Shown piece by piece: positions 9,742-58,429 of a stretch of 64,000 bases of DNA (positions are counted from its first letter, which is position 1; every line of letters starts with the position of its first letter). Source of the DNA: Nitrospira sp. Lineage in GTDB: Bacteria; Nitrospirota; Nitrospiria; Nitrospirales; UBA8639. The translations under genes were made by a program, and so were the position numbers. Below the pieces are notes generated by a model. It was not told the origin of the DNA, made no database searches, and saw only the letters and a program-made list of their open reading frames with translations. The stretch covers positions 1-64,000 of the forward strand of contig WTGX01000007.1 of NCBI GenBank assembly GCA_011523385.1. Reading direction: 5' to 3'.

Positions 9742-11829
9742 TTACGGGGACGATACCGTCAGGGGGGCTTTTGAGAGGACCGGAGACACCGTTCCCAGGT
9801 GGTAGTTGTGACACGTGAGACATGTGTCTTCCGCCCGTTCCGACGTATGACACGTCGTACAAACGGTTTTCTGCATGGCTCGGAAGCTGCTTGTAAACGT
9901 CAATGGATCGCCATCCTTGAATGATTCCATGACCTCGGCTTCAGGGTTAAGCGTATGACACGTGAGACAGCCTTTATCCTCCAGCAAACTGAAATGGACC
10001 TCATGGGTAAAGCGCGTCACCTTCCGTTCATGGGGAACCGGACGCGCTGCAGACCAATGAATCCGTTTCCGTTGACCGGCTTGTGCATCGACACTGTGAC
10101 ACTTCATGCACTGTCCGGGGGCTTTGGGATTTGCCAAGGTTGTGAAAATCGCCTCGGCTGAACGCCCATGTTTTGTTTCCGTTGATCGAGCGGTGAGATT
10201 CAACCATGCACACAGGAACGGATCGGCATGTCCGGATGGACGATAGAGCAAGACAAAATCCGAATCCTGACGATACCAGCCCCCGCTTACCATCTTCTTT
10301 TCACGTTCCCGGTCTATTCGGATCTCCTGTTCACCTTCATGCTCTTCAAGCCGCACCACCGTCTCTCCGGCTTCTGAACCGGACAACTCCATCGCTAAAT
10401 GGGGCAACCATTGTTGCTGTGCGGCATGAATGACCTCGGCCGGCAGTTGACCAACCAAGTCCGCAAATTTCCGGGTATCGAGGTCCGTTGTCGCCTGAAG
10501 CCGATTCACAATCTCCCGTTGCCCTTTCATCACCAAGTTGTAAACCAGTCTCTTCACGGCCCAGACCATTCTGCCTACGGCTGCGATTTCTTCATCCGTG
10601 GCATCCGACAAATCCGTGAAATCATCAAACCCTGACAGGATGGCCAGATCTTCTGTCAAGGCGGGATCCGTTCCCAGCAACAACTCCATGAAAGGCGTGA
10701 GCCCCTCTTCGACGTTGGCATCGGCCGGCCACTCGCCAACGGAGACGCCATGTTCTTGTAGCGCCTCCAGGTCCAATCCCGGTAACCGCAAGAACGCAAG
10801 CCCCTTTGCGCCCGAGCGACCGATGCCAACGATCTGCCCTGCGTGACAGCTTGCACAAGCCGTCTCAAAGGTGCCCGTTCGCATGGTTTGACCGTCATCA
10901 TCAGGACTATGACAAGCGGTACACGTTATCGGAGCATCTTTCTTGAATTCGCCAAGAAAATGTTTCCCGATATGGGAAGCGTGATCAAAGGCTATCCGTG
11001 TACGCCGCTTGTATGGGTAGCCCGAAAACGGCGGGTGCCCATTGGCCAAATCCGAGAATGCCCTCGTATGACAGGTTTGGCACTGTTGCACGTCCATCGC
11101 GACCAGGTCGAAATCTTTCCCTCGATGCTCCCCGTGACACGTTGCGCAAGCCAATCGCTCTTTTCCCGTTTCCATTAAATCCGGCATCCAGGACGAAAGA
11201 ACTCGAAACAACGGCACGTCAGTGGACGGAGGAGTCCGGTTCAAACGTTCCGTGACGGCAGACAATTCCTTGGGGGGACGACCGTGAGCCTCCAACGCAT
11301 GGTCTCCGAGATAATGACACGTCAGACACAACTTGCTGTTCTCCTGTCCCGTTCCCGACGCACCCAACGCAAACACCAGGTCCACAAGGCCTCCATGCGG
11401 GGCAGCATGACAGTCCGCACAAGCTCCGGCTGAGGCTCCATGTCCGAACGTCAGTTCTCCGGGAGAAAAGAAGGCCGATCCTTTTGGACCGGAGAGAAAG
11501 AGCAGCGAGAGACCAACCATGACCATGGAAAGCCAAAACGTGATCCTGCGTCGCACGGCCAGGAGGCTGAGAATCGGCTGGCACGCGGGAACGGACCGGC
11601 AACAGGTTCCGTCCGGCAAGGGACCATCTTCACATGGTCCACCTGGGATTCGAGAACAATGCCACCGTGCTCCTTCCCGCACCGGGACGCATTCCATCGT
11701 CACCCTGCAGCGTCCCTTCTCGTCGGGTCCGTTCGAACAGGCCAGCTCTTCCGTCGCCCGTCCACACACCCAATTCCCGGTGGGCCGGGCAACGTGCCCC
11801 TCACGGAATCCATCGTCCTGCAAGCGCAT
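9742..11829 (-). CDS. Decaheme c-type cytochrome with Cys-rich N-terminus and one TM segment
   Basis: 10 CXXCH motifs (CADCH, CLTCH, CATCH, CQTCH, CTACH, CASCH, CMKCH, CLTCH, CTTCH, CLTCH). Confidence 0.88.
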   Translation of the reverse strand: MRLQDDGFREGHVARPTGNWVCGRATEELACSNGPDEKGRCRVTMECVPVREGARWHCSRIPGGPCEDGPLPDGTCCRSVPACQPILSLLAVRRRITFWLSMVMVGLSLLFLSGPKGSAFFSPGELTFGHGASAGACADCHAAPHGGLVDLVFALGASGTGQENSKLCLTCHYLGDHALEAHGRPPKELSAVTERLNRTPPSTDVPLFRVLSSWMPDLMETGKERLACATCHGEHRGKDFDLVAMDVQQCQTCHTRAFSDLANGHPPFSGYPYKRRTRIAFDHASHIGKHFLGEFKKDAPITCTACHSPDDDGQTMRTGTFETACASCHAGQIVGIGRSGAKGLAFLRLPGLDLEALQEHGVSVGEWPADANVEEGLTPFMELLLGTDPALTEDLAILSGFDDFTDLSDATDEEIAAVGRMVWAVKRLVYNLVMKGQREIVNRLQATTDLDTRKFADLVGQLPAEVIHAAQQQWLPHLAMELSGSEAGETVVRLEEHEGEQEIRIDREREKKMVSGGWYRQDSDFVLLYRPSGHADPFLCAWLNLTARSTETKHGRSAEAIFTTLANPKAPGQCMKCHSVDAQAGQRKRIHWSAARPVPHERKVTRFTHEVHFSLLEDKGCLTCHTLNPEAEVMESFKDGDPLTFTSSFRAMQKTVCTTCHTSERAEDTCLTCHNYHLGTVSPVLSKAPLTVSSP

Positions 11830-11832
11830 AGG

Positions 11833-12651
11833 CTATCCCGTTGTATAAACCGATATCACGATCGCGTGAACGAACGAGAGAATCAGGAGGCTATAGGCCA
11901 CGGGGACGTGGATAAACAACCAGTATTTGAGCGTTCCCTGGAGTGTTTGCTGATAGTCAAGGTCATCCTTGACGTGGATCAGGACTCGTAACTCTTCTGC
12001 TCTTTCCCGTTCCTTCTCCCCTAAGTCGCGATCCAAAGCCCCAAGATCGGTGAGCAGCGCACGACCGGAACTGGCGGCACCGAAGAGATGGCTCCAATAG
12101 TTCCGTGGTCCGTCGAGAAAAGAAGCCAGTTGCCGCTCATGGAAATCCGCAAAAACCGTCGAATGGTCTTCTGAAACGGTACGCTCAACGACGTCTTCAA
12201 TTTTCTCACGAAGACGCTCTCGCATGATGGGAATTCGTTCAAAGCTCACCGCCTCTCCACCCATCGCGAGCCGCCGGGACAGCACGTATAACAGGATGAG
12301 CCCAACGATCCCGCTGACGGCACACGCCGCATACAACAGCGTCAGCGTCACTTCCAAAAGACCATTGGGAACGCGCAGTCCAATATGCAGGACAAAAAGC
12401 ACAAAGGTCAGCAGACCGGCAGACACGTGAAGCTGGAACCAATCAATGGACGCTCCCAACCTGAAAAAAGGGGGTCGATTGCGAAGGTTGTACATGATCA
12501 GGACGAGGAAGAAGACAAAGAGGAGCCATCCCGAGAGAAACGTGGTCCGGTAGGGTGAAACAACTGATGCGGTGTAGAGGCAGGCGAGGAGAAGGATAAG
12601 TACGCTCCAGGCCGCGATGGCGACCCAATGTCGTGACACAAACGTCATCAC
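11833..12651 (-). CDS. Polytopic membrane protein, cytochrome-b-like
   Basis: 272 aa with about 5 TM segments carrying His (FQLHVSAGLLTFVLFVLHIGL; FIHVPVAYSLLILSFVHAIVI); sits between cytochrome genes. Confidence 0.65.
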   Translation of the reverse strand: MMTFVSRHWVAIAAWSVLILLLACLYTASVVSPYRTTFLSGWLLFVFFLVLIMYNLRNRPPFFRLGASIDWFQLHVSAGLLTFVLFVLHIGLRVPNGLLEVTLTLLYAACAVSGIVGLILLYVLSRRLAMGGEAVSFERIPIMRERLREKIEDVVERTVSEDHSTVFADFHERQLASFLDGPRNYWSHLFGAASSGRALLTDLGALDRDLGEKERERAEELRVLIHVKDDLDYQQTLQGTLKYWLFIHVPVAYSLLILSFVHAIVISVYTTG

Positions 12652-13739
12652 CGGTTCAGCCGACCGACAAGGGACAAAAGATCGTGCCCGGCCACCTGTT
12701 CCGGCGGTCCTCCGGGTTTGCCTTTGTATTGCTCCGCCTGTGGGATGATTCGATCCAGGGCACTCAATTGGCTGCCGTCACGGGTGCCGGCAAGCCTTTG
12801 AGTCGTCACGGCAACCGCGTTGGCTGCCGCCAAGAGAACTTCCTTGCGATGCTTCCGATCGATGCCCCGGATGATTTTCAGAATTTTCTTGACTTCCGGG
12901 ATAGGACTCAACCGATAGATCGCCAGAAGTTTATTCACGACGCGTTGGACGCGCGTCATCGTCGCGGTTGCATACTTCCCTTTTTTCGTCACCTTGGCAA
13001 GGGCACGAAGACCGTACTCCAGATCGAGAGCTTTCCCCACAACGTAGAGCATCCGTTGACGCTCCCGGGACACTTCTTCATTCTTTTTCCCTTCAGAACG
13101 GAGAAATTTGTGGCGGACTTCACCCAGGGACCACGACACCAGTTCAAAGTCGTCATCCCCGGGTCCATGCCCTCCAACGTTCACCAATTTTTCGTTGGAC
13201 ACGACGTGACATTGATAGCAGTTTGCCGCAAGACGATACAGATTCCCGGGACGAATCATGCCGGCGTCCCTGATTGCGGCAAGACGCCCGGCCTTATGCT
13301 TGGGCGTCTCCTGTTCACGGGTCACGTTCTTTCCGCCGTAATCACCATGGACCTTGAGCCAGGCCTTTGCCGGACCATGGCAGGACTCGCAGGAGATACC
13401 GGCAATGGCTTTCACCTTGTTCTTTCTATAGCCGGACGTGAAATGACAGGTCACACAGGCTTCGGCCTTTTTCACGCGTTTGATTCCCATGTTACCGGCA
13501 ATCTCCTTGGCCCGCTTCTTGCGCGTGAGGATGTTAAAGGTTTGGGAGTGCATGGTTTCTCTCCAGACGTGCACCTCCGCTTTGTGACATTCGCCACATT
13601 CATCCGGTCCCACAATGTTCAGAAGATCGTTCCCGGAAAGCTCTTTGGCCTCAAGCTCACCATTGGAGAAAACCACGAATCCCGGCATGAGACTGAACCA
13701 CACCACAACCAACCCGATCGCGGTATTGACGCGGTTCAT
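12648..13739 (-). CDS. Tetraheme c-type cytochrome (cytochrome c554-like)
   Basis: CGECHK, CVTCHF, CESCHG, CYQCHV; signal peptide MNRVNTAIGLVVVWFSLMPGFVVFS. Confidence 0.85.
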   Translation of the reverse strand: MNRVNTAIGLVVVWFSLMPGFVVFSNGELEAKELSGNDLLNIVGPDECGECHKAEVHVWRETMHSQTFNILTRKKRAKEIAGNMGIKRVKKAEACVTCHFTSGYRKNKVKAIAGISCESCHGPAKAWLKVHGDYGGKNVTREQETPKHKAGRLAAIRDAGMIRPGNLYRLAANCYQCHVVSNEKLVNVGGHGPGDDDFELVSWSLGEVRHKFLRSEGKKNEEVSRERQRMLYVVGKALDLEYGLRALAKVTKKGKYATATMTRVQRVVNKLLAIYRLSPIPEVKKILKIIRGIDRKHRKEVLLAAANAVAVTTQRLAGTRDGSQLSALDRIIPQAEQYKGKPGGPPEQVAGHDLLSLVGRLNR

Positions 13740-13810
13740 CAATCCACCAGTTCTTGAAATGATTCTGCAAGGGCATTCACGTTCACTCCCGTGAATGCAC
13801 GCAACAATGA

Positions 13811-14278
13811 CTACGCATCCAGAATCAGCGTGCCGGTTGGAATGGAAGAGCACAGTACGCACCAGCCGGACGCCGGTCTATTCTGAAAGGACGTCACATA
13901 TGAGACGGCTCCGGACTTGATGGCCGTCAGACATCTCCCACACTTGCCGGCGCGACATCCAACGGGCACATGGACATTATTTCTTTTTGCCAGTTCCAAT
14001 AATGAGCCCATGCTCGGGTCCCACGTGCACGTCTTGCCCGACCTGACAAAGACGACTTCAATACCTGAACCCGCAGGCGTGACGGCTGACTCTGTACGCT
14101 TGCGGTCCAGATGCCGAGACTTCGCCGTCTGCACGCGACGGCAGAACGCTTCACGGGCAAAGCAACGCTGCTGCTTTCTGTACCGGATCCGGCGCCATAC
14201 CCCGGCGAGCAACCAGGCGAGGCGAAACAGGCCCGCCGCGACGATGCCGCTCCCGATTCCCTGTATCACCCACTCCAT
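13811..14278 (-). CDS. Membrane-anchored [2Fe-2S] ferredoxin
   Basis: N-terminal TM (GIGSGIVAAGLFRLAWLLAGVW) and VGCRAGKCGRCLTAIKSG...CVLC plant-type ferredoxin cysteine pattern. Confidence 0.8.
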   Translation of the reverse strand: MEWVIQGIGSGIVAAGLFRLAWLLAGVWRRIRYRKQQRCFAREAFCRRVQTAKSRHLDRKRTESAVTPAGSGIEVVFVRSGKTCTWDPSMGSLLELAKRNNVHVPVGCRAGKCGRCLTAIKSGAVSYVTSFQNRPASGWCVLCSSIPTGTLILDA

Positions 14279-14386
14279 CCTTCCCCTCCCGGATCAGTCT
14301 TTGCCCCTATCGACGACGAGACGTCGATAGCCCGTCACAAGCGTACCGGCAACCCGTGCCCGCTCCCAGCAACACTTCCATCATCC

Positions 14387-15808
14387 TCAAAATTTCGTGA
14401 GCCATTCGAGACGCGCGCCATAGGACGGATCGCGTCCTTCCTCCACCGCTCCAAAGGCATCGACCTGGGCCACAACATGACGACCGATGGCGTGTTGATA
14501 CCGAAGCCCGGCGGCATAGGCGCCCCCGTTGTCGGCCTGATTGTTCGTATTCTTCCGACCTCCCAACTCAACAATAAGCTGTTGGCGAGTCCGGTTGAAA
14601 AATGCCTGATACCCGAGACTGCCTCCGGCGGCATTGTCGGCCTGATTACCCAGTGCGGCCCCATACCGGCCCAATCCCACAGCGGCAAACAAAATCCCTG
14701 TTCGCCCGAGCGGGCCACCGGTTTCAGGCCCACGAATAGCCGAGGAAAATTCTCCGATTCCCCAAAACGTATTGAGGTAGAGGAAGTCCTGGGTGTGCGG
14801 CGGGGTCCAGGAAATTTCATTGAATACCAAAGTGCCGCGGCTGGTTTTCGGCGTTTCGCGCGTTGTTGGAAACGAGGCATTGAGGGTCAACGTGGTATTG
14901 AAAGGCCCAATACGCTGAACGCCTCGGAGCCCGGCAAACAAGGCATCGCCCGTGTCCGCCCCCGCTTCGAGGTAGACAAGGTCCAGATCGACCGTCGTCA
15001 CGGGAAAGTCCGTTTCCGTAAACAGGCCGAAGAGTTGGGCATCCCGGTCGAGTTGGTTATCGTCCCGGTACACGTTGTCCCACGCATAGAAGGCACTGAT
15101 CCGTACGTTCGACGTACCCGGCAGTTGCAGGTTGTTCCGGACCAGCGAAACGGCGTCAGGATTGCCCAGCCCCCCGCTATTGATCAGGATGCCATCCTGA
15201 AAAAGCACCGCTTGCCGGCCGATCGAAAACCCAACGTCGAGCATCCCGGTCTCCTCACGATCAAGAGCCGGAACAATCTCTCCCAGGTCTCCTTCAAAGA
15301 ATGCCGTCCTGACCACCGCGTTGAATTCGTCCTGAAAGTCTCCATCAGGCTCGAACGACACGCCGGTAAAACGGTTCTCACGATCCAGGGGGCGCAATCC
15401 GATCAACAGGCGCTCCGAGGCCGACAATTTGAGATTGGCGAACAGATCGAGACGGTGTGCCCATTCAGAAATGCGCGTCGCGCCGTCATCGACGGTCTGC
15501 ACGGCCATCCGGTGCGTCCCGAATACCCAGAGGGCCGGGCGCCACACCGCGCCGGTGGGTAGTTCGACTTCCGGACCAAACGACCCGGTTCCAAGAAACG
15601 GTTCCCCCAATTCCAGAAGAAGCGTTGGACGTTCCGGCACGTCTTCCACTTGAAGCGGAAGAGGAATATCAGACAACCGGCTTTCTGATTCCATCTCCAC
15701 GAATCGTTCTCCTGCCTCGCCTTGCCCTTCTGAGCCGGCCCATACAGGTGAAAACCCCATCAGCAACGCCAGGACCATGCCGGTGGAAAAACTGAATCTT
15801 CTCATCAT
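14387..15808 (-). CDS. Outer-membrane beta-barrel/porin-like protein
   Basis: 473 aa with signal peptide MMRRFSFSTGMVLALLMGFSPVWAG, amphipathic strands, terminal ...RLEWLTKF. Confidence 0.65.
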   Translation of the reverse strand: MMRRFSFSTGMVLALLMGFSPVWAGSEGQGEAGERFVEMESESRLSDIPLPLQVEDVPERPTLLLELGEPFLGTGSFGPEVELPTGAVWRPALWVFGTHRMAVQTVDDGATRISEWAHRLDLFANLKLSASERLLIGLRPLDRENRFTGVSFEPDGDFQDEFNAVVRTAFFEGDLGEIVPALDREETGMLDVGFSIGRQAVLFQDGILINSGGLGNPDAVSLVRNNLQLPGTSNVRISAFYAWDNVYRDDNQLDRDAQLFGLFTETDFPVTTVDLDLVYLEAGADTGDALFAGLRGVQRIGPFNTTLTLNASFPTTRETPKTSRGTLVFNEISWTPPHTQDFLYLNTFWGIGEFSSAIRGPETGGPLGRTGILFAAVGLGRYGAALGNQADNAAGGSLGYQAFFNRTRQQLIVELGGRKNTNNQADNGGAYAAGLRYQHAIGRHVVAQVDAFGAVEEGRDPSYGARLEWLTKF

Positions 15809-17601
15809 TGGCCGGGTGTACGATCCTTTGAGGAAACGTCAAAGACCACGTCGCGCTCCCATAACGTCACGTGTCCCTCCAACACCCCCTCGGCCACGTC
15901 ACGGGGACTCATTCCATAATCGAACCCAACCTCCTTGATATCATCGATCAGATTGACCGGCACCATACCGAGAATCAGCTTGATCGTGGCGACATAGGGT
16001 CCTCTACCCGTTAATTGGGTACCCGGTATCTCATACAACGCCCACCGACTCCCGTTCGGTTCAATGCTGCTCCTGTGTTTTCTCACGTTCACCGGACGTC
16101 CCAGCAGAACGCTTGACTGCGTGAGCGGACGTATAAACGGCAACGGATCAAATGAAGGATTGACCGGAATGACCCGTTCGCTCTCACTGCCACGGAAGTT
16201 CCGGATGACAAATTTCGATTGCAGGTTGAACAGGTACGGGTCCAACGGCAGTTCACCATTGTGAACGTACAGTGAATGCGAATCACGAAGATCGCCGTTG
16301 GGGTCCACGTCGCCGGACTTGAAGATGACCGTTCCATCGCGGTCCGCCACCGTCACCTGCAAGTAGACGACGCGCTCTGCGTCAAAACCGGTTGGCACGC
16401 CATGGCCGGTGGTGCCACTCCGCACCTGCACCTGAAACCGGATTCCTTGTTCATCGGCTCGTTCGGTCACGACTTCGCCGAGCGTAAATCCTGTCTGCAG
16501 CAACCGTTTTCGCTGAGCCAGATATTCGTCCAATAAGGCAAATTGTTGGTCCAGAATTTCACGAGCTTCATATCGTTCATCAACGGAATTCCATCGCTCG
16601 GGGAACACCGCGTTGTCAGGAACCGCGTCTTCAAACTCATTCGTCCCCCACCCGGCCTCATAATCAAACGTCAGCCACTCCCGAATGGTAGCGGCCTTCG
16701 CAGCATCCGGGTTGTGCGGAAAGATCCCCGGATGGACCACCGAATGATCCGGCCCGGGGAACATATGATTGGTGCGTTTTCGCGGCTTGGTCTCGGCGTC
16801 TCCGATCCGGGCGGCAGGCGCCACGGCGTAGCCGGACGGTCGCCCTGGCTCCGTCCCCATGTGACAATCCTGGCAGGTGACGCCTTCCTTCGCAGACGGC
16901 GACGTCTTATACTCACTGAAGGCTTCCTCCAGACGGAATCCATTGAGCAAATTGACGTCGTGGCACACGCCACAGAACCCAGGGGTCACGAATCGGAAAA
17001 ATTTCTTCACGTCGGTATGGATGGCCCGGCCCGGTTTGCCCCGTTCGGTGTTGACCTGGTATTCGCCACTTTCGATCACGCGACGGAGTTCCTTGTTCCC
17101 CGTCGGGCCGTAAACCGGTTCGAACAGGTCGCCTTCCACTATCTTCATCCGGCCACTTTCTTTCCCATACGCTTGATTGATCCGGTGACAGACAATACAG
17201 GTCACACCCTCTCGAGAAACCGGATGCCGGTCAACGTTGCTCATGAATAAAGGCTCTCTACGGTTCATCCCCACTTGGGTGTGGCAACGAATACAAAAAT
17301 CCCCATTGGTTCCATTGGTTCGCTTGAGGATGGTGCCCTGCATGGCATTGAACACGGGACTCATCTGAGCATAGGCGTGCGGGGATACCGACCATTCACG
17401 GTAATGATCCTCATGACATGTTTTACAGGTGGCGGCAGAGGGAAACCGGTTGCCCTCCCCCAATGCCCCGTGCGCAGATTCGGAAGTAATTTCCTGCTCG
17501 CCGGTTGACTGTTCTGTCGCACCGGGCAGAACCGATGACACGCCCATTGCAATCAACAGCAATGGAAACATCAGGTGGTTCGTTTTAAACTTTGATGTCA
17601 T
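15805..17601 (-). CDS. Pentaheme c-type cytochrome
   Basis: CKTCHEDHYREW, CIRCHTQ, CIVCHRI, CGVCHDV, CQDCHMG; signal-like TSKFKTNHLMFPLLLIAMGVSSVLPG. Confidence 0.85.
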   Translation of the reverse strand: MTSKFKTNHLMFPLLLIAMGVSSVLPGATEQSTGEQEITSESAHGALGEGNRFPSAATCKTCHEDHYREWSVSPHAYAQMSPVFNAMQGTILKRTNGTNGDFCIRCHTQVGMNRREPLFMSNVDRHPVSREGVTCIVCHRINQAYGKESGRMKIVEGDLFEPVYGPTGNKELRRVIESGEYQVNTERGKPGRAIHTDVKKFFRFVTPGFCGVCHDVNLLNGFRLEEAFSEYKTSPSAKEGVTCQDCHMGTEPGRPSGYAVAPAARIGDAETKPRKRTNHMFPGPDHSVVHPGIFPHNPDAAKAATIREWLTFDYEAGWGTNEFEDAVPDNAVFPERWNSVDERYEAREILDQQFALLDEYLAQRKRLLQTGFTLGEVVTERADEQGIRFQVQVRSGTTGHGVPTGFDAERVVYLQVTVADRDGTVIFKSGDVDPNGDLRDSHSLYVHNGELPLDPYLFNLQSKFVIRNFRGSESERVIPVNPSFDPLPFIRPLTQSSVLLGRPVNVRKHRSSIEPNGSRWALYEIPGTQLTGRGPYVATIKLILGMVPVNLIDDIKEVGFDYGMSPRDVAEGVLEGHVTLWERDVVFDVSSKDRTPGQ

Positions 17602-18075
17602 TGCCACCACAAACGATACTACCCATTGGCGCACAAGGATTCTTCGCCCTGACATCCTTCCAAACGACACCGAATTTCATGAACGCAGGATTCAAATATT
17701 TCAATTTCGTTGTTGTATGGGAACTCTATCGACAGCCAAGTCGTTACCATGTATGCCGGTAACGGGCAAAATTTCGGGAAAGTATAAGCAATTTCAAGTA
17801 ATTGTCAATTCCTGGAATTGAAACGGATGGTTCAAATCGAAATGGAACAATCATTCCGGATTTGCATAGGAACAGACCGGCCAGTTGGCCAGGAAGTGCC
17901 GAAGAAGAACGGGCGGAAATGCCCCTTTATTGATTGGCAACTTTTCTCATTTCGCAGTACAATATGTTTATTCTTTTTGTCGGATAAGAGCCGCTGTGGG
18001 CACCTGAAACAGGGCCTCCGACGCTTGTTCCCCGACGCTTTTAATCGGGGAGCTCACCGGGGAAAGGAGTCGCTC

Positions 18076-27873: not shown

Positions 27874-28080
27874 CTACTGAACAGTTTTCCATGCCTCGTC
27901 TTCTTCTGATTTATTCCAATCTTCCGCCAGACTGTCTTCGCTGAGCAAAGCACATTCGCTGGCATTTAATAATTCCCGTTGATGTTCGATACGCTGCTTC
28001 ATGAACAGAAAGAAATCATAGACTTCCTGACGCGCCCATTCCGGCAAGACAGATACATCAATTGATTTTATTGATTGCAT
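27874..28080 (-). CDS. Small DUF2281/antitoxin-like protein
   Basis: 68 aa: LPEWARQEVYDFFLFMKQR...LLSEDSLAEDWNKSEEDEAW; embedded between methylase and specificity genes. Confidence 0.6.
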   Translation of the reverse strand: MQSIKSIDVSVLPEWARQEVYDFFLFMKQRIEHQRELLNASECALLSEDSLAEDWNKSEEDEAWKTVQ

Positions 28081-30176
28081 GGTTCATCCCTCCAAAAGCT
28101 CAAATTTTCACCCTTCGCCCATTCTATGAAGGCTTCCGCGATGCCGTCCGGTAATTCACCTACGTGGTTGTGTAAATCATGGTCAACGATCAGATGCCCG
28201 TTTGCATCCAATTTGTCTTGACCATTGTCGTTTTTCAGATAGACGTAATCGCCGGAATTGTCTTTGCCTCCTTTTTGGGAGACAGCAAAGAAGATCGGGT
28301 AGTCACTGACTTTGGGACAAAGCTTCTCATCCCACTTCTGCACAAACAAGACACTGGTTTTGGTACCGGTGTGGGGTTTGAAGGTGTTACCGTGCAACCC
28401 GACCACCGCAAGGATACGGCCCCGCCCTGCGATAAATTCGCGTATATGCTTGTCGGATGTGTTGTTGAAGCGCCCTTGCGGCAGCACGATTGCCATGCGT
28501 CCACCAGGCTTTAGAAAATCCAGATTTCGCTCGATAAATAAAATATCACGCCCGACCTTGCTTTGTGCCTTTTTGCCATCAGCTTTGAAGCCAAGTTCGT
28601 ATTGATGCAAGATGCGGCTTTCCTTGATGTCTCCAGCAAAAGGCGGATTGGCCATCAGCACGTCAAAGTTGAACTTCTTGTTTTGACCTTTTTCGGCTCT
28701 CAGCTTTTCCAGCCTTTGAAAGCCATTGCCATAGGTGTTGATCCACTTTTTGTCTTTATCAGTTTTGTCGCCCCATCGGTCATAATCCAGCGTGTTCAAA
28801 TGCAGCACATTGGTTTCCCCATCTCCGGCAATCAGGTTCAAGGTGCGGGCCACCCTGACCGTCTTTTCGTCGAAGTCAATGCCGAACACCTTGAGAACAT
28901 TCTGTTTGTCATCTTTCGAGATTTCTTCATTGGTGAATAAATGGCCCGTCAGTTTGAAAATGGTATGCACGGGAAATCCGCAACTGCCGGAGGCCGTATC
29001 AATCATATATTCGCCGGATTTGGGATTCAGCATTTGCACACACATATCAATGATGTGACGCGGCGTGAAATATTGCCCTTTTTCTCCCTTGGCGGATTTG
29101 TTGACCAGATATTCAAATGCTTCATCCACGACCAGCAGATTGGAGTTAAACAACTTCACGTCTTGCAAGCTGGAGACGCAAACGGCCAAATGACTGTCAG
29201 AAAGCTCGAAGGTTGAGCTTTCGGGAAATACTCCCTTCCATTGTTCTTTGGCTTGATTGAACAAGTCTTGAATCTTGTTTTTCAGTTCGGTGTCTGTTTG
29301 TCCGGTATTTCTGAATTCCATGACTCTAAAATCATGATCGCCAATACTGCTGACAGCCTCCTTGAGCGCCCCATAATCCGAACCGCCGAGATAACTAGGG
29401 GGCGCAGGTTCATGTACGGCGGTCTTGGTAACCTGTTTCAGGAAGTAGTTGAGAAGGTTTTTGTCATCACGGCTTAGATATTCATCATAGAGCTTGGTAA
29501 AGATAAGTTTGAAAACTTCCTCGAATACATCAACGCCGGCGTTTGCCAGTACTTCATCTTCCATTTCCAGGATGATGTCTTTCAGAGATTTTCGCTCATT
29601 GGCGAGTTTGTCCTTGATAACCAGTTCTTTCAGTGTAAACCGTTCGCTGAGTATGTCCTTGAGGCCTTGCGTTACCTTGGGAACGGCGGTGATGTCTTCG
29701 AAATAGTTCGGGGCTTTGCGGTGGTAATGGGAGATCTTCTCACCGTTCGTCCATACACCAATGGGAGCGCCGGTAGCATTGCAATAGGAACGAAGTTGAT
29801 TTTTCCCGTCTTTGAGTTTGGGTTTCTTTAGCTCGACGATGATATAGGCGGTGTCCGAACGGTCTTTATCGAAAATGACAATATCCGCACTTTTCTTCTC
29901 CCTGCCGAAATTCACTGGATATTCAAAGGCAAGCCGTTTCTTGGGATATCCGTACTTCTTGATAAGCCGTGCAGCATAAAGCTGCCGAACGATTTCTTCC
30001 GGTTTTAACTGAATCTCCTTATCCCGAACGATGCAGGTCACAAAAGCGGTTTCCTTGCCCCTGGTGGTTTTGATAGAGAGTCTCTTCTGTAAGGATGCAA
30101 TTTCATCAGGAAAGAACAGGTCGAGATGATAATTGCTGTCTTTGAGTATCGACTGGATAATATCCGGCTGTGTCAT
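28068..30176 (-). CDS. Restriction enzyme: N-terminal HsdR_N-like nuclease fused to N6-adenine methyltransferase
   Basis: FEYPVNFGREKKSADIVIFDKDRSDTAYIIVELKKPK (PD-(D/E)XK-like) then GQYFTPRHIIDMCVQMLNP...DTASGSCGFPVH...DVLMANPPFAG. Confidence 0.85.
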   Translation of the reverse strand: MTQPDIIQSILKDSNYHLDLFFPDEIASLQKRLSIKTTRGKETAFVTCIVRDKEIQLKPEEIVRQLYAARLIKKYGYPKKRLAFEYPVNFGREKKSADIVIFDKDRSDTAYIIVELKKPKLKDGKNQLRSYCNATGAPIGVWTNGEKISHYHRKAPNYFEDITAVPKVTQGLKDILSERFTLKELVIKDKLANERKSLKDIILEMEDEVLANAGVDVFEEVFKLIFTKLYDEYLSRDDKNLLNYFLKQVTKTAVHEPAPPSYLGGSDYGALKEAVSSIGDHDFRVMEFRNTGQTDTELKNKIQDLFNQAKEQWKGVFPESSTFELSDSHLAVCVSSLQDVKLFNSNLLVVDEAFEYLVNKSAKGEKGQYFTPRHIIDMCVQMLNPKSGEYMIDTASGSCGFPVHTIFKLTGHLFTNEEISKDDKQNVLKVFGIDFDEKTVRVARTLNLIAGDGETNVLHLNTLDYDRWGDKTDKDKKWINTYGNGFQRLEKLRAEKGQNKKFNFDVLMANPPFAGDIKESRILHQYELGFKADGKKAQSKVGRDILFIERNLDFLKPGGRMAIVLPQGRFNNTSDKHIREFIAGRGRILAVVGLHGNTFKPHTGTKTSVLFVQKWDEKLCPKVSDYPIFFAVSQKGGKDNSGDYVYLKNDNGQDKLDANGHLIVDHDLHNHVGELPDGIAEAFIEWAKGENLSFWRDEPCNQ

Positions 30177-30192
30177 CTATTTTCCGTTTACT

Positions 30193-33100
30193 CTAAAATT
30201 CACGCTCTTCCCGAATTTGTGCATCCTCAATCAGACCATTTAAATGATCTATATATTTCCCTAACCACAATTGGATCTTCACTGATGAAATTTCTTTCAA
30301 CCATTGCCTTGCGGCATCACGTTTTCTTGAAAGGTAATTGCTTTCAGGTCCGGTCCATCCACCCGAATAAAAATGTCCAAATAGACTGTATGCTACACGG
30401 TCGTCATCACAAAATTTTTCGATAAATAAACACGTCAGCTTGCCACCGGCTTCTTGGTCCAGGGTTTTGGGTAAGATTTCCAGAATCAGCCATTGCCGCT
30501 TCTCCGGATCTTCCTTGAGCCATCTCAACACCTTTTCCGCCGGCAGGTAATTGGCTGCACTTGGTTTTGGCATGTCTTCGAAACCGGTATCAGCAAGCCA
30601 GTGAATCACTGTACGACGGTCATCTGGTTTTGATACTAGAATCTCCGATATAACCTTCCATGCTTCGCACGGACAATCAAACACGATCTTATCCGCGATT
30701 TCTGCAACAAAACTTGTGTCACCATGATGAGAAATTCGTCTCATATTTCTCAATATTTCGTTCAGCAAATCCACGCTTCGCGTTGGATGTTTTTTTATGA
30801 ACCCTTTCGCTATCTCATTCCCGTAATACATAGCCATGAGGTCAGCAGTTTCGGAAAGTATAGTGAGAACTTCAAACACCAACTCTTCGGGAAAATCATC
30901 AGAAGCCTCTTCGACAAAGTAAAAATTATATATAAGCTGTGTGCAGACGTTAGCAGAAGTCTTATCAGGACGTCGCAGCAGTGTGGCAATGATCTCCTGA
31001 AACAAGTGATCCGATATCTTGTCCCTGTCTTGTCTGAATGCAAAGTCGTCAAAAGCCGTTGAATCAATTTCTCCTTCCTTTAACAGGATCAACATCTCGC
31101 GCAACAAAGATTCGGTAAAATCTGAGCGCCCAATACAAGCAATGGCGATTTTCCGGGTCACGTGATTATGTAATAAATGGTGCAATAACGTTTCCCACCG
31201 CTTGCCATCCCGACGACGCAGACCACCGAAGTACCCACTCACGAAGGACGCATTGATATCGGCATGACCCGATTCGATATGTTTCAATAATTCCTCATCG
31301 AATTTAGATTCTGCCAGTTTTCCACATTCGACTCCCAACTCCGGCAGTCGATACCCTGATGCTCTAGCCAGTTTTGGTAGATGTTCGGAAAATACCGTAA
31401 AGTCTCTCATGTATTCCCCGGCCAAGTCCCGTACTCGTTTATCGGGCAATTTTGATTCCTTACTTTCTCCTCCATGAAACCTCCGATCCTCTTGCCAAGT
31501 GCTATACAGGACGTAACGTTCGGTTCGCTCCCAGAGTGACGTGCCAGTCAACACCTTATCCAATTGCCGGATTCTGCCAAGTATGGTATTTGTATTATCC
31601 GAGTTATCACTATTTCGCCAGAGGGCTCGAATGACAAACCGGATAAGCGATTTTCGATTGACCTCCTTATCTTCAGCAAGTTCAAACAGTATATCCATAA
31701 TTTCATCGGCCATCGCCTCGATTCGCATAAAATGCACAATATCCTGGGCAGCGGTGATAAATACTTCAGCGGCCCGATCCCGATCGGCTGTACTGAACCC
31801 TTTCATTTCAACACGCAGAAAGCGTAAAACCTTCCGCCAATAATCAAAGACCTCACCGTATGTCTTCGGACGCCAGAATTCGATAGTTGGTTTCAGACCC
31901 TGATATTCTGCGCCAACTATCCTGAAGGCACCCTCGGTTTTCAGCCATTGTTGACACATTTCCAATCCAAGGACGCGGCGACCGACATCGTTGCTCCTGA
32001 CCAGATCTTTCAGGATAGGAAGCCGTTTGGATGGCGCCGCCTGGGTCGCTGCCCACCCCAGCCCGACATTGAACAAGCTGAGCAAGAGCCCTTTGGAGTT
32101 ATTCGAATACCCTGCATTCTCCGCCAGCGCCATTGGGATTAACACGCTTACCGCCCGCGCAAAGGACTCATCCCACGCGGCTATCTTTTCCAAAGCCCCG
32201 ACAACATCCTGGCGACCCGCATGCCATGCATAAAGTTGTTCATGCGACCATGTTTTGACGGTGCGTTCCAGCAACGCCAATGTACCCGCCGGATCTGCCT
32301 CCGATAGATAGTTCAGAAATCGCAATCCGGTTTCCGATACAAGAAAATTATGATCGGAGAAGGGACCCGTCGTGGATAATATTTTGTCAACCACATCTTG
32401 CGCTGGCCGTACCCCATGTGCGTAAATAAACAATTGCAAAAACCAGCGTTTCATGCCGGGTGGGATTCGTTCCATGAATGCCTGAAATGGAAATCCTCGG
32501 CCGTAGTTATTCCAAAAATCCACCCACAGATACACGTGCAAGGCCTTTGGCACAATAAATAACGTATGGCTACCCTGTAATATCCGTTTAGCCCGGTAAT
32601 GTTGAACAATCTCTTGAAATCTGCCCCAAGTCATCGTTGAGTCGGTTTCGTTAACGAGACTGCATATAAATTCACCTTCTTCACTGACCGGCGATTCAAA
32701 ACCGAAGCGGTGAAAAAGGGCGATGTAGCGTAAGACGATCCGATGTTGCTCGGCCTCCCGGCTATCCATTTCTTTATGTCCGACGATAAAACGATCCCAG
32801 ATGGGAACGTCAGCAGGGGATTTCAGGACATGGTCAGGATTACTTTTCAGATTTTCGCCAACGAGATGGGCGACTCGTGGAGAGCCGCTGCACCACTCTG
32901 CCCAATTATGCAGATCGGCATTTTGTTGAAGATAGCCGAATAGGATATTTTTGATTTGCTCTTCTGCAAGTGGTGGGCAATGATACACCCGCATGGCGTT
33001 ATCATGGGTTTCATCAGGACCATGATCGATCGTGATTAATTTAATCCTGTTACGACCCTTCAGGACCGACCAGATGGAAGTTCTGTCACCATCTTCACAG

Positions 33101-34290
33101 TCATCAATCACCAATATAATGGAATAGTATCTGTCAGGTTTGAGCAGTTCCTTAAACAGTTTACTTTTTTGGAATTCTTCCCCGCGTGGCACGTAGACGA
33201 CCGAGGGGGCGATATGATCATCAGACACCGCTTCAAGTACGAGACGGGTCTTTCCGATACCCGGTTCACCGATGACGCGGATGTGTTGAACAGCATTTTC
33301 GTGGAGAGCCGCTCTTATTTCCTTGATTAATTTCTCCTGTTCACTGCCGAGTTGCAGTGCAACTCGCATTTGGGCGTCATTTTTCCTCCATCCCTCGACC
33401 GACTGAAAACCGCCGTCGTCAAGTCCAATCAGATCAAGGCAAAGAGAAGGATATTTGTCCAATTCGCCAGCTACCTGGCCTTGCCCATACACGGCGACTT
33501 TTGGCTGGACATAACCGCAGGCCTGAAATAATTCGGTCAATCGAGTGACTGCCACATCGTGTTGATGGGGCAGCAAATCATGACCCAAGGTGACGAAGGC
33601 ATACGTTCCATCCTGCTCAAGACAGATTTTTATTGCATGACCCAGGCGTTCCCTTGACGGGGCGGCATTCGATTTGCCGAATAATTCTTTTTTCAAGTCG
33701 CCGGTTTGCCAGGGCTTGAACCCTGATCCTGTTTTGATCTGATAATAGGTACTGCCTTTGGCTAATAAGGCATTGGACTTCGGTGAATTGTCTACCTTTG
33801 CATCGATGCCGCCGTCCGGTGCGTTGGTATTTGATGACAACACCACGTCTTTGTGGCTAAGCCCGTTGGCGATGGCCTCACATCGCAATAACCTCAGGAG
33901 CAGGCTCGTGCCTTGCTCAGAATTCAACTGGCCCAGTTCGCTCGGTTGAGGGGCAAACGTCGAGGGTACGGTAGTAAGACGCCGATTTATTGAGCTTGGT
34001 TTCGGCAGGACCTGCACGGGCTGTATGTTCACGTTTACACGCAGACCGGCTTTTTGGGCCAGTAACACAAGGGCATCGAGGCTGAATTTTTCGACTCGAC
34101 TCTTAAGCAAGTCGTTCAGACGAGGCTGGGTGATGCCAAGTACGTCAGCTTTTTCGGCCTGTGTGCCGGTACGTTGTTGTATGTGCTCCCGCAAGGCCGT
34201 CATCAGCGCAACCCGTTCCCTGATATCAGCGGATGATTTACGCCTCGTTTCGGCTTGACGTTGTTTTTTTATGGTTGTCTTTTTTTCCAT
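30193..34290 (-). CDS. XRE HTH - PD-(D/E)XK-like nuclease - STAND-type P-loop NTPase fusion, candidate antiviral protein
   Basis: HTH: TGTQAEKADVLGITQPRLNDLLKSRVEKFSLDALVLLAQKAGL; nuclease-like: APDGGIDAKVDN...STYYQIKTG; Walker A GEPGIGKTRLVLEAV; Walker B YYSIILVIDDCEDGD; long helical C-terminal region. Confidence 0.75.
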   Translation of the reverse strand: MEKKTTIKKQRQAETRRKSSADIRERVALMTALREHIQQRTGTQAEKADVLGITQPRLNDLLKSRVEKFSLDALVLLAQKAGLRVNVNIQPVQVLPKPSSINRRLTTVPSTFAPQPSELGQLNSEQGTSLLLRLLRCEAIANGLSHKDVVLSSNTNAPDGGIDAKVDNSPKSNALLAKGSTYYQIKTGSGFKPWQTGDLKKELFGKSNAAPSRERLGHAIKICLEQDGTYAFVTLGHDLLPHQHDVAVTRLTELFQACGYVQPKVAVYGQGQVAGELDKYPSLCLDLIGLDDGGFQSVEGWRKNDAQMRVALQLGSEQEKLIKEIRAALHENAVQHIRVIGEPGIGKTRLVLEAVSDDHIAPSVVYVPRGEEFQKSKLFKELLKPDRYYSIILVIDDCEDGDRTSIWSVLKGRNRIKLITIDHGPDETHDNAMRVYHCPPLAEEQIKNILFGYLQQNADLHNWAEWCSGSPRVAHLVGENLKSNPDHVLKSPADVPIWDRFIVGHKEMDSREAEQHRIVLRYIALFHRFGFESPVSEEGEFICSLVNETDSTMTWGRFQEIVQHYRAKRILQGSHTLFIVPKALHVYLWVDFWNNYGRGFPFQAFMERIPPGMKRWFLQLFIYAHGVRPAQDVVDKILSTTGPFSDHNFLVSETGLRFLNYLSEADPAGTLALLERTVKTWSHEQLYAWHAGRQDVVGALEKIAAWDESFARAVSVLIPMALAENAGYSNNSKGLLLSLFNVGLGWAATQAAPSKRLPILKDLVRSNDVGRRVLGLEMCQQWLKTEGAFRIVGAEYQGLKPTIEFWRPKTYGEVFDYWRKVLRFLRVEMKGFSTADRDRAAEVFITAAQDIVHFMRIEAMADEIMDILFELAEDKEVNRKSLIRFVIRALWRNSDNSDNTNTILGRIRQLDKVLTGTSLWERTERYVLYSTWQEDRRFHGGESKESKLPDKRVRDLAGEYMRDFTVFSEHLPKLARASGYRLPELGVECGKLAESKFDEELLKHIESGHADINASFVSGYFGGLRRRDGKRWETLLHHLLHNHVTRKIAIACIGRSDFTESLLREMLILLKEGEIDSTAFDDFAFRQDRDKISDHLFQEIIATLLRRPDKTSANVCTQLIYNFYFVEEASDDFPEELVFEVLTILSETADLMAMYYGNEIAKGFIKKHPTRSVDLLNEILRNMRRISHHGDTSFVAEIADKIVFDCPCEAWKVISEILVSKPDDRRTVIHWLADTGFEDMPKPSAANYLPAEKVLRWLKEDPEKRQWLILEILPKTLDQEAGGKLTCLFIEKFCDDDRVAYSLFGHFYSGGWTGPESNYLSRKRDAARQWLKEISSVKIQLWLGKYIDHLNGLIEDAQIREEREF

Positions 34291-54425: not shown

Positions 54426-55676
54426 TTATCCTGCGGTTTTCTTGAATTCTTTCAGGAGAATATTTTCCTTAAAGCGAATGATTTGGACGGGCTTGAATGC
54501 TCGATCTTTCTTCCCCAGGGCGGCCCGCTGTTCGACTTCCTTCACGAACGCGTCAGGCCCGTAAATGGGGGCGTAGGTCATGGTGACGATCACGTCCATG
54601 GACGGGGCGTTCCTGGGAGTCGGGAAGGTAAAGGTTTCGACCCGTTGCTCTTCGGGCTTGAGAACGCTGTCTTTCAATACCTTGGCGGCTTCGAAGTCGA
54701 AGACGGTGGATTTCCCGTCTTTGGTTCCAAACACCCGTTCATAGTAGCGTTTTTCCCCGTAGGCTTTCCGCAGATTTTTCCCCAGGATCGTCAGATCGAG
54801 TTCCACGCGGGACCACCCCGGATGGGGTAACGGCAGGTTATGCGGGACCAGGCTCTGGACCGTGACCTTGACTTCTGACTCTTCACCTTTGACTTCGGTC
54901 TCGACCTTCACTTTCACGGCATCGGCACGTACCTTGCCAAACCGGCCGGGGAAACTGTGGTTCGAAATTTTCCGATTCCGTTCTCCGTTGGCCGACTCGC
55001 CGAAGGCTTCGGGCATATGGCAGGACTGGCAATTTTTTCCAGACTTTTGGGTTTCGGTCTTCTGCCAGGGACCCAGTAAGTCCGGCAGTTTTTCATGGCC
55101 CGGCAAGTTTTCGTGACAGGTTACGCAGTATTGTGATTGGCTGTAGAGTTCCGTGGGAACGGATTGATGCGCCAGATTTTCGACCGGTTTTTTATAGCTG
55201 CCGAAGACGGTCCGTTCCAGTTGATAGGCCGGGTGCGGCGGATGCCGTTCCGGGTCCACGTCCTTGATCAGGTGGCATTGCGAACATCCCACCCCGTCCA
55301 ACCGGGGATCGCCGGATTCTATTTCCTTGATATAGACGCGCGCATGCTCCGGATACTCCAACACGCTCGGCGCGTGGCACCGAAAACACATTTTGCCTTC
55401 TTCGTCACCGGAACTCGACGTGTACCGTTCCAGCGAGACACGAAAAGGTGAACTCAAAATCGACCGGGATTGGGCGGAAGCCTCCCATTCCTCAAACACG
55501 CGCAGGTGGCACCGCTTGCATTTCCGGGAATGCGGGAACGCCTTTGCCATCGGTTTCTTCGCGCTTTTCTCAGCGGCCGCTGTTTGGGACACGGGGACAT
55601 CAACGGCAAACGTGAGCACGGTGACCGCCATAAACGTGCCGGTAGCCCAACTCAGTGCATGGATAAATTTTTGCAT
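54426..55676 (-). CDS. Pentaheme c-type cytochrome
   Basis: CKRCHLRVFEEW, CFRCHAPS, CSQCHLIK, CVTCHENL, CQSCHMPE; signal peptide. Confidence 0.88.
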   Translation of the reverse strand: MQKFIHALSWATGTFMAVTVLTFAVDVPVSQTAAAEKSAKKPMAKAFPHSRKCKRCHLRVFEEWEASAQSRSILSSPFRVSLERYTSSSGDEEGKMCFRCHAPSVLEYPEHARVYIKEIESGDPRLDGVGCSQCHLIKDVDPERHPPHPAYQLERTVFGSYKKPVENLAHQSVPTELYSQSQYCVTCHENLPGHEKLPDLLGPWQKTETQKSGKNCQSCHMPEAFGESANGERNRKISNHSFPGRFGKVRADAVKVKVETEVKGEESEVKVTVQSLVPHNLPLPHPGWSRVELDLTILGKNLRKAYGEKRYYERVFGTKDGKSTVFDFEAAKVLKDSVLKPEEQRVETFTFPTPRNAPSMDVIVTMTYAPIYGPDAFVKEVEQRAALGKKDRAFKPVQIIRFKENILLKEFKKTAG

Positions 55677-55726
55677 GAAGTTGCCCTCAATCGATCAAGT
55701 TGGCATACGTGAAACGATAAGGCCAC

Positions 55727-57073
55727 TTATAAGGATTTCGTCCGGAACGTCAGGAGTCGTTGCGATGAGTAATCCTTGATGATCTCCGCGGCTTTCTTTT
55801 TCTCCCGTTCGTTTTTCAGGGTCCCCAGATACTGGTCAAGCAATGCCTGGCCCGGTTCGGGAATCAACGCATAATTTAAGGAGGCCTCCACGTAACTCGG
55901 CACGGAACCCTCCCTGACCTGTATGGAGAACGGGACTTTCCGCGTGGTTCCTCCGTTGACGAGGGGGTTGGGAATCGGCCCGCGAAGAATTTTGTCAAAC
56001 GGCAAACCGAATCGTTCCTGCTTGGTCCCGAGTACGTGCCCTTCGGCGTCCTTGACCGTGATGGTCACGAAAAACTGCTTCAACACGGGGTCACCGCCGG
56101 GAAACACGTGAGGAAGACTCCCGTTCCTGACCAATACCCTGCCCTCCACACCATTCGCCGACTGCTTGACCTCAAGATCCACGCGCGGAAACCATTCGGC
56201 TTGCAGGTTTCGATTGCTGAGCATGATGCCCGGGATTACGATCCCTTGAAACCAATGCCGTCCGATGGGCCGCGTGAGCGAGCCGCGTTGCGAGGTGGAA
56301 CTCCCCGTGGACCGCTCCATGTGGCAATCCTGACAAATCGTTCCTTTCAGGATTTGTCCGGGTAGTTCGGCCTTGCTCACGTCTTTGACTTTACTGAAAT
56401 GACAAGACGCACAAAATTGAGCGCCCTTATACACCTGAGCCTGTTTCGAGGGATGCACCAAATTTTCTTCGGCATCGGCATAGGGGCCGAAAAAGGTGTT
56501 TCCCGGATTGATCTTGAATGCCGGAACCTCCCCGTTATTTTCCTTGACCGAATCGATCAGATGACAGGACGAACAACTGATCCCTTCCGCGCCATGGGTC
56601 TTCTTCGCCCGCCTGCCCCGTCTTTTCGGCTTTTCCGACAGGACCTGGGTGATGAACTTTTCCGTATGTTGCGGGAACACCGTTACGGCCGGCGCATGAC
56701 ACGAGAGACACCGGGTTTTTTCTTCCACGGTCGGTCCCGTTTGCAGCCACAGGCCGAGGACGGTTTGAAACACGGGAGACGTGAGCGCGGTCCCGTGCAA
56801 CAGGGCCCCATCCACCCGCCCGAACGTTTTGAGGTCGGGAGTTTGCTCGCGCATCCCTTTCCATTCCTCGTAGTGACGATCATGACATTGTTTGCAATGA
56901 TCTGACGGCAGAAAGATTTCCTCGATTTCCTTGATCCACTTGTGGGTTTCAGGAACCTTGGGTGCTTCCTGCGCCATTGCGCAAGGCACCGGAATCCACA
57001 GGATGCCGGCCAGTACGATCAGCAAACAGCTATTCACGTGTCTTTTGGTCAGGCTGTTTCGAAAAGACGGCAT
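55727..57073 (-). CDS. Pentaheme c-type cytochrome
   Basis: CKQCHDRHYEEW, CLSCHAPA, CSSCHLID, CASCHFSK, CQDCHMER; signal peptide. Confidence 0.88.
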   Translation of the reverse strand: MPSFRNSLTKRHVNSCLLIVLAGILWIPVPCAMAQEAPKVPETHKWIKEIEEIFLPSDHCKQCHDRHYEEWKGMREQTPDLKTFGRVDGALLHGTALTSPVFQTVLGLWLQTGPTVEEKTRCLSCHAPAVTVFPQHTEKFITQVLSEKPKRRGRRAKKTHGAEGISCSSCHLIDSVKENNGEVPAFKINPGNTFFGPYADAEENLVHPSKQAQVYKGAQFCASCHFSKVKDVSKAELPGQILKGTICQDCHMERSTGSSTSQRGSLTRPIGRHWFQGIVIPGIMLSNRNLQAEWFPRVDLEVKQSANGVEGRVLVRNGSLPHVFPGGDPVLKQFFVTITVKDAEGHVLGTKQERFGLPFDKILRGPIPNPLVNGGTTRKVPFSIQVREGSVPSYVEASLNYALIPEPGQALLDQYLGTLKNEREKKKAAEIIKDYSSQRLLTFRTKSL

Positions 57074-57075
57074 GG

Positions 57076-57501
57076 TTAATCTTTCTCAACGCGTACGAAG
57101 TGGAAGTTCAGCCCGCCACCGACACCCTGATCGTCGATGCCGGCCGGTTCAAACGTCGCCACGGAGAAATTCTGAGTCGGCATCGCTTTTTCGAGCGCCT
57201 TTCCCAAATCCAGCATGTTCCGGATGTCCTTTCCGTCCACTTCCTTGATGACGGCCTTGACCTTTATGCCGGCACGATCCGCCGGCGAGCTTCCGATCAC
57301 GCCAAAGACCACCACGCCTTCGGCCTTGGTCAGGCCGAGAACTTCCTTGATTTCTTCATCGACTTCGCCAACGTCGAGGCCGAATTCTTCCGCCAAGACA
57401 TACGCGCGGTCCTCCGTCATGTCTTCCGCCGACGAGAGGACCGGCGCCCACACGAAGCCACTGATGCAAATCGCCAGGATGGCACTGCGGCCGATCATCA
57501 C
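57076..57501 (-). CDS. Exported PDZ-domain protein
   Basis: GVVVFGVIGSSPADRAGIKVKAVIKEVDGKDIRNMLDLGKALEKA. Confidence 0.82.
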   Translation of the reverse strand: MMIGRSAILAICISGFVWAPVLSSAEDMTEDRAYVLAEEFGLDVGEVDEEIKEVLGLTKAEGVVVFGVIGSSPADRAGIKVKAVIKEVDGKDIRNMLDLGKALEKAMPTQNFSVATFEPAGIDDQGVGGGLNFHFVRVEKD

Positions 57502-57532
57502 CTTTCGCCCGCCAAGGCCCCTTTTTCATCCG

Positions 57533-58420
57533 TCATGATTTCTTCGAAGCCACGCCGACCGGATCGACCAGCAGTTGAAGCCAGGACGCCACGGCCTTTT
57601 GTCCGTTTCTTTCTTTATTCTCGCCGTTCCAGACGGCAAAGGCCACGGCTTGCATGCGGCCGGGGACCAGGAGAGCTTCATTTTCCGTGTCATCCCCGTC
57701 TTTGGTCAATGGACGCTTCATCACCACTCGCCAGAACCCTTTGTCCCATTCTGCTTCGCCTTTGACCTTGCCTTGCCGGTTCTTGCTCGTCAACGTACTG
57801 AACCCGCCACCGATGAGATCTTCGACCGAAGAGGGACGTCGAGGAATCACTTCGAACTTGCGAATCCCTCTCTTCTTGCGTCCACGTTCCTTGGCCCTGG
57901 CCTTTCTACGATCCACGTCGCTTTGCCAATCCGCTTTCCAATGCCAGATGTTGACGTAGTGATCCAATTGGCCCATACAGAAAAACGCCGGCGCGTTCCC
58001 CAAGGGAAGGGCTAACGCCGCCCCGTCACGAAAGACGCCGGGGGTCAGTTGTTCATTTTTGGTCGCATCCTGCCATTCCACCAAAAATGCGATGTCTTTG
58101 CCATCATGAACCGATCGCACCGAGATGACCTTGGCGCTGGGTTCCGGCCAAACCGGTCGGGTAATGATCTGGCCGCTAAGGGGAATGGGAATAGGCGCGA
58201 TGGTCTCCCACGCCGCATCGTCAGGCTTCGTGGGCAGCGGACCGTCCGTAAAATGGGACCGGATCATGATCCCTTGAGAACTCACCGCGGGGATCCCGAA
58301 CCAACCAAGCGCCATGGCCAGGCACACAATGCCCGATCCCGTCAAGATCAGCGAACGGGGAAGCCTTCGTTTTGATTTCACGGGACCGTATCCATTGCTT
58401 GATGCAACCGCTTCACTCAT
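57533..58420 (-). CDS. Ethylbenzene dehydrogenase-related heme-b subunit (NxrC/EbdC-like), membrane anchored
   Basis: N-terminal TM; GQIITRPVWPEPSAKVISVRSVHDGKDIAFLVEWQDATKNEQ; DGAALALPLG...FFCMGQLDHYVNIWHWKADWQSD; MQAVAFAVWNGENKERNGQKAVASWLQLLVD. Confidence 0.85.
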   Translation of the reverse strand: MSEAVASSNGYGPVKSKRRLPRSLILTGSGIVCLAMALGWFGIPAVSSQGIMIRSHFTDGPLPTKPDDAAWETIAPIPIPLSGQIITRPVWPEPSAKVISVRSVHDGKDIAFLVEWQDATKNEQLTPGVFRDGAALALPLGNAPAFFCMGQLDHYVNIWHWKADWQSDVDRRKARAKERGRKKRGIRKFEVIPRRPSSVEDLIGGGFSTLTSKNRQGKVKGEAEWDKGFWRVVMKRPLTKDGDDTENEALLVPGRMQAVAFAVWNGENKERNGQKAVASWLQLLVDPVGVASKKS

Positions 58421-58429
58421 CTGTCATCC

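Follow-up and report, generated by a model that had tools for sequence, protein, structure and literature searches.

How electrons might be passed between the cytosol and the outer membrane of a nitrite-oxidising sponge symbiont is the question raised by six contiguous genes at positions 9742-17670 of a 64,000-nucleotide stretch of Nitrospira sp. DNA (contig WTGX01000007.1), henceforth referred to as the window. The window opens a contig of a 2.5-Mb genome that belongs to the GTDB genus bin75 ('Ca. Nitrosymbion', Nitrospirales), whose members are nitrite-oxidising and mainly sponge-associated (PMC11812461); nitrite oxidoreductase-like A and B genes were identified on another contig of this genome by sequence and protein length. 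Open reading frame (ORF) analysis placed all six genes on the minus strand, in the transcription order pentaheme cytochrome, porin, ferredoxin, tetraheme cytochrome, cytochrome b and decaheme cytochrome. We hold it slightly better than an even chance that they form an operon-like envelope pathway resembling PCC4, a putative porin-cytochrome complex (He et al. 2017, PMC5566968), in which electrons would run outward from a cytosolic reductant via the ferredoxin to the outer membrane.

An earlier sequence-only reading had listed pentaheme, barrel, transmembrane (TM)-anchored [2Fe-2S] ferredoxin, tetraheme, cytochrome-b-like and decaheme genes on the minus strand, carrying about 19 hemes c. Each gene was indeed found where it had been placed, and the CXXCH count is exactly 19 (5 in 15805-17670, 4 in 12648-13862 and 10 in 9742-11829). 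The DNA pattern for CXXCH occurred 30 times in the window, where shuffled sequence gave an expectation of 3.5, and 30 was reached in 0 of 100 shuffles. The gene positions stood, with two limits revised: the pentaheme ORF reaches 17670, but a start near 17598 is preferred because the longer one is excluded by an in-frame stop in the relative L010, and the tetraheme start is put at 13739.

The pentaheme and porin genes overlap by 4 nucleotides, the tetraheme and cytochrome b genes also overlap, and the cytochrome b and decaheme genes are separated by 3 nucleotides. A sigma-70-like promoter candidate (17781..17808, minus strand; TTGACA-16-TATACT, 11/12 match) lies upstream of the pentaheme gene. 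Its placement ahead of the first gene is suggestive only, and the total number of promoter-like sites was not above chance. Internal terminator-like sites were likewise no more numerous than chance, and the repeats detected were short two-copy matches with no evident meaning.

The cytochrome b gene (11833..12651, minus strand) encodes a predicted five-helix diheme b-type cytochrome of the PCC4 inner-membrane kind. Hydropathy showed peaks for five helices, and WX3HX13H motifs at 70 and 243 and an SGXXG motif at 112 (alignment numbering) were present in 13 of 13 homologues, with the WX3HX13H histidines invariant. From its motifs the protein appears able to ligate two b hemes in a stack; Pfam gave no match to cytochrome bc1-b. 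The tetraheme gene (12648..13739, minus strand; ORF to 13862) encodes a c554-like, putatively periplasmic cytochrome (Cytochrome_C554, E 1.7e-15) whose four CXXCH motifs aligned in all relatives. The decaheme gene (9742..11829, minus strand) is predicted to encode a Cys-rich cytoplasmic N-terminal domain, one TM helix (96-114) and a periplasmic decaheme part, the latter placed in the periplasm by the positive-inside rule from the RRR preceding the helix. With one exception allowed, all 10 CXXCH motifs and 9 further His were conserved in the 10 relatives compared, a pattern that fits hemes mostly of bis-histidine type serving electron transfer. The N-terminal residues 1-95 form a conserved Cys-rich cytoplasmic domain of unknown type; FHA stands in its place in some relatives, and it is missing in L012.

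This gene set corresponds closely to the published description of PCC4, which comprises a porin, 4-, 5- and 10-heme cytochromes and a conserved five-TM inner-membrane protein with SGXXG on TM4 and WX3HX13H on TM3 and TM5 (PMC5566968). The window likewise has a porin, 4-, 5- and 10-heme cytochromes and a five-helix protein with SGXXG and two WX3HX13H motifs. In PCC4 a redox gene with a shared set of domains lies directly upstream of the tetraheme gene (PMC5566968). A redox gene occupies this position here too, with Fer2 as its only domain in the window and FAD, NAD and Fer2 domains in L015, a locus from another family. An Fe-S gene (pfam13247) precedes the gene for the inner-membrane protein in PCC4 Subgroup II but not in Subgroup I (PMC5566968), and does not define PCC4 as a whole; the window and its genome are without one, as in Subgroup I, whereas L015 has one. 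The hosts also differ, being Proteobacteria and Planctomycetes in the text of PMC5566968 and a nitrite oxidiser of the Nitrospirota here, with the redox gene reduced to Fer2. PCC4 was proposed from gene content alone, with electron flow drawn to the quinone pool (PMC5566968). The sequence-only reading had regarded the ferredoxin/cytochrome-b module as absent from canonical systems. The chemistry of that reading was right in outline, but the module is not unprecedented: since gene content and cytochrome-b motifs match PCC4, in which such a module was published, this part is not new in kind. What is new is that PCC4-type clusters occur in Nitrospirota, one of the carriers being a nitrite oxidiser, that the NAD(P)H-reductase domain and the cyclic-nucleotide-binding (cNMP)/4Fe-4S subunit accompanying this cytochrome b in relatives have been lost, and that the porin is predicted, according to the structure model, to have about 18 strands.

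The ferredoxin (13811..14278, minus strand) consists of a TM segment (7-25) and a Fer2 domain (80-147; E 4.5e-9), whose cluster motif, CX4CX2CX26C, is intact and had invariant cysteines in the alignment with relatives. Seven K/R residues occur just after the TM segment versus none before it, and by the positive-inside rule the ferredoxin domain is therefore predicted to face the cytoplasm. The L015 counterpart is an FNR-Fer2 fusion, an FAD/NAD(P)H reductase anchored in the membrane, with the ferredoxin as its C-terminal domain. The window protein is the orthologue of both ends of that reductase, while the FNR domain between them, present in L015 (10262-11569), is missing. Apart from the Fer2 piece, no homologue of the L015 reductase was found in the window genome, and the bare, predicted cytoplasmic ferredoxin is the only visible electron port in the cluster.

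Relatives of the cluster carry further cytosolic modules. L015 has the same genes plus two additions: the reductase part fused to its ferredoxin, and a protein with cNMP-binding and 4Fe-4S dicluster domains, encoded between its tetraheme and cytochrome b genes. In L053, from a third lineage, the pentaheme/porin pair adjoins a cNMP/4Fe-4S/cytochrome-b fusion, a decaheme gene and a Pyr_redox-FHA-Fer2 protein. A cNMP/4Fe-4S protein adjoins cytochrome b in all other cytochrome-b loci read (L054-L060), and Pyr_redox-cNMP-Fer4 fusions occur in L057 and in Sphingobium (L094). As judged by their domains, the FNR-Fer2, Pyr_redox-FHA-Fer2 and Pyr_redox-cNMP-Fer4 proteins point to a pyridine-nucleotide port. 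The window genome yielded no cNMP/4Fe-4S protein, its sole match being an NxrB-like subunit. Genome G015 has the pentaheme/porin pair but no cytochrome b of this family.

The porin, cytochrome b and decaheme of the window matched nothing when searched against plasmids; the L060 cytochrome b as query matched Sphingobium plasmids, on which the inner-membrane module also occurs. There the cNMP-binding redox module adjoins a metallophosphoesterase (L094 14666-15514; L095 14644-15492, annotated in L095 as a CpdA-like cAMP phosphodiesterase), an arrangement that hints at possible nucleotide control of the electron chain. In L057, L058 and the Sphingobium plasmid L094, cNMP/4Fe-4S, cytochrome b and FHA-decaheme genes stand beside a different, larger porin candidate (612-730 residues) and GlcG-like heme-binding proteins; L058 and L094 also encode a 10-heme cytochrome of 1255-1329 residues with LVIVD repeats. 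This arrangement looks like a further porin-cytochrome type.

At the outer-membrane end, the pentaheme gene (15805..17598, minus strand) encodes a c-type cytochrome with a signal peptide, five CXXCH motifs and a C-terminal GHxVPTG (Ig-like) region. Profile matches to cytochrome c552 (5ze8, E 8.7e-16) and MccSep (E 1e-3) covered parts of the heme and PTG regions, and on sequence the protein groups with the PHC family, to which T. tepidum c552 and Geobacter ExtKL belong. It shares with that family (T. tepidum c552, ExtKL, Gsu2801; PMC11976967) five hemes followed by an Ig-like region and detectable sequence similarity; it differs in being longer than c552 and in having neither selenocysteine nor a truncated haemoglobin domain. 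PHC cytochromes have been grouped among those with five-coordinate, potentially catalytic hemes (PMC11976967). The pentaheme protein is the most conserved of the set (73% to L015), with a ratio of nonsynonymous to synonymous substitution (dN/dS) of about 0.2. Its structure model was poor (predicted local distance difference test score, pLDDT, 42.6), and the PHC fold was not confirmed by it.

The barrel that had been read at 14387..15808 (minus strand) was upheld as an outer-membrane porin with a signal peptide and, in the alignment, an invariant C-terminal Phe. An AlphaFold2 model of low to moderate confidence (mean pLDDT only 55.6) formed a barrel of about 18 strands. Foldseek comparison with the PDB gave 217 matches at E<=0.001, the best 50 of which were outer-membrane beta-barrels, mostly porins, and the fold was OprD/MOMP/AlgE-like, with matches to MOMP, OccK and AlgE at E values down to 6e-12. 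No Pfam or NCBIfam family matched the porin, and PDB sequence searches with the porin and with cytochrome b returned nothing useful. MtrB-type barrels have about 26 strands. MtrB was absent among the best 50 of the 217 fold matches to the porin, for which about 18 strands were predicted with limited model confidence. The computed backbone radius was about 17 Å, versus about 25 Å for 26 strands, so the porin as modelled is probably too small for an MtrAB-style sheath and could at most hold a thin cytochrome.

Two better-known types of system bear comparison. MtrAB, MtoAB and PioAB share the idea of a porin with a periplasmic multiheme cytochrome, but the window decaheme is predicted to be anchored in the inner membrane and is not of the MtrA/DmsE family, and the barrel is not of MtrB size. 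Identity of the decaheme with MtrA or MtoA was rejected, the protein scoring 34 bits against a cut-off of 192.2 for the DmsE/MtrA model. The Geobacter ext cluster extHIJKLMNOPQS (PMC5877670) is similar in its small porin ExtI, pentaheme ExtKL (PHC), decaheme ExtN, tetraheme ExtS, cytochrome b ExtP and Fe-S protein ExtO. It differs in having a Rieske protein, where the window has a plant-type Fer2, and a cytochrome bc-like b subunit, together with a dodecaheme, a rhodanese and a selenoprotein.

The six genes behave as a unit. Synteny, named beforehand as a refuting test, was found to hold: all six genes and their order are retained in L010, L011 and L012, and the order is kept across families in L015, with insertions. 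Within the genus, porin and cytochrome b were both present in 6 of 14 genomes and both absent from the other 8 (Fisher P 3.3e-4). Across 169 Nitrospirota genera the barrel and cytochrome b were also associated (P 4e-4), and they were adjacent in 3 of 3 shared genera. In the non-carriers L088, L089, L090 and L092 the flanking glutathione peroxidase-like (GPx-like) and copper-ATPase (CopA) genes adjoin directly, with about 0.1-0.6 kb between matches, and the cassette is therefore defined as the six genes; two other contigs, being too short or rearranged, did not show the two flanks. The flanking-gene tree mixes carriers and non-carriers (L011 with L089, L010 with L091, L012 with L088), so loss of the cassette, or its replacement in situ, has happened on several occasions. 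Values of dN/dS were 0.17-0.54 over all six genes, indicating purifying selection. GPx, CopA and MMPL neighbours were rejected as partners, as they stay together without the cluster.

In the proposed pathway, electrons would enter from a cytosolic reductant via the ferredoxin, cytochrome b would carry them across the inner membrane, and the decaheme and then the tetraheme cytochrome would pass them to the pentaheme/porin pair, where an external or porin-admitted oxidant would take them up. Because this genus has neither the reductase nor the cNMP/4Fe-4S protein, reduction of the bare ferredoxin would fall to an enzyme encoded elsewhere. The cytosolic ports of relatives are of NAD(P)H/ferredoxin type, and by analogy the outward direction is preferred. 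The opposite direction was the model of He et al. for PCC4 (PMC5566968): Fe(II), Mn(II) or another donor outside the cell would feed porin/pentaheme, tetraheme, decaheme, cytochrome b and finally the quinone pool. The habitats of PCC4 carriers are consistent with Fe(II) oxidation (PMC5566968), and quinone activity is possible for diheme b cytochromes of such a shape; however, in relatives cytochrome b is coupled to cytosolic flavoproteins of NAD(P)H type, to Fer2 and to 4Fe-4S proteins, whose reduction by a high-potential donor would need energy input, and symbionts of the sponge mesohyl are not obvious Fe(II) oxidisers. We regard inward flow as unlikely. A little less likely still is an electron valve, in which the PCC4 chain of a nitrite oxidiser, having shed the NAD(P)H reductase and the 4Fe-4S subunit, would be tied with no intermediary to the low-potential ferredoxin that serves the reductive tricarboxylic acid cycle, so that these sponge symbionts could dump electrons outside under low oxygen or draw low-potential ones in for CO2 fixation.

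As the modelled barrel has a backbone radius of only about 17 Å, a reductase of the periplasm, supplied through the porin, stays a serious rival, which we rate above inward flow though still unlikely. Electrons would then not cross the outer membrane at all: the porin would admit a soluble oxidant (oxyanion, NOx or Fe(III) chelate) and the pentaheme would reduce it in the periplasm at the expense of the inner-membrane chain. The size and fold of the porin are those of the substrate porins Occ/OprD and MOMP, and the pentaheme, being related to PHC proteins with their potentially catalytic hemes, is the protein on which conservation is strongest. There is also a precedent in ExtI, encoded next to ExtKL, which is implicated in selenite/tellurite reduction and dispensable for Fe(III) citrate reduction (PMC5877670). 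Set against this, He et al. read such a gene pairing as a porin-cytochrome conduit (PMC5566968), and the pentaheme model is too poor to resolve heme coordination. Decay of the cluster into a non-functional symbiont remnant, once the reductase domain and the FeS/cNMP gene had gone, is very improbable. Both cytosolic partners are missing, presence in the genus is patchy and the decaheme N-terminal domain is missing in bin75 itself, but all ORFs are intact, every heme and cluster ligand is retained, including the invariant ferredoxin cysteines, and dN/dS is well below 1 in the six genes between several species.

The outward PCC4-type pathway has several points to contend with. Its patchy presence in close relatives marks it as dispensable, and no cytosolic reductase is encoded in or beside the cluster. 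With about 18 predicted strands, the porin may be unable to enclose a multiheme wire, and no clear extracellular cytochrome was found. The match to PCC4 is one of gene content and cytochrome-b motifs as described in PMC5566968. A trans-envelope redox chain with cytoplasmic ferredoxin entry, as the sequence-only reading had it in part, is the best-supported reading; the electrons may cross the outer membrane, but the porin is predicted to be much narrower than the MtrB/PioB barrel of its analogy.

Two other loci in the window were observed. A second multiheme cluster (54426-59683, minus strand) encodes a PDZ protein, an NHL-repeat protein, a heme-b subunit of ethylbenzene-dehydrogenase/NxrC type and two pentaheme cytochromes that are distant relatives of ExtKL. 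At 28068-34290, an N6-methylase joined to a type I restriction R-type N-terminus is followed by a 1365-residue protein in which only a helix-turn-helix domain was recognised.

The genomic-potential section of the genus description mentions no such conduit, and the description found no hydrogenase or formate dehydrogenase (PMC11812461). The cluster would add an envelope electron pathway to nitrite-oxidising sponge symbionts. In the Nitrospirota loci, the PCC4 cytochrome b travels with cytosolic modules of pyridine-nucleotide/ferredoxin type, subject to swapping, fusion or loss, and this makes an input different from the published scheme likely.

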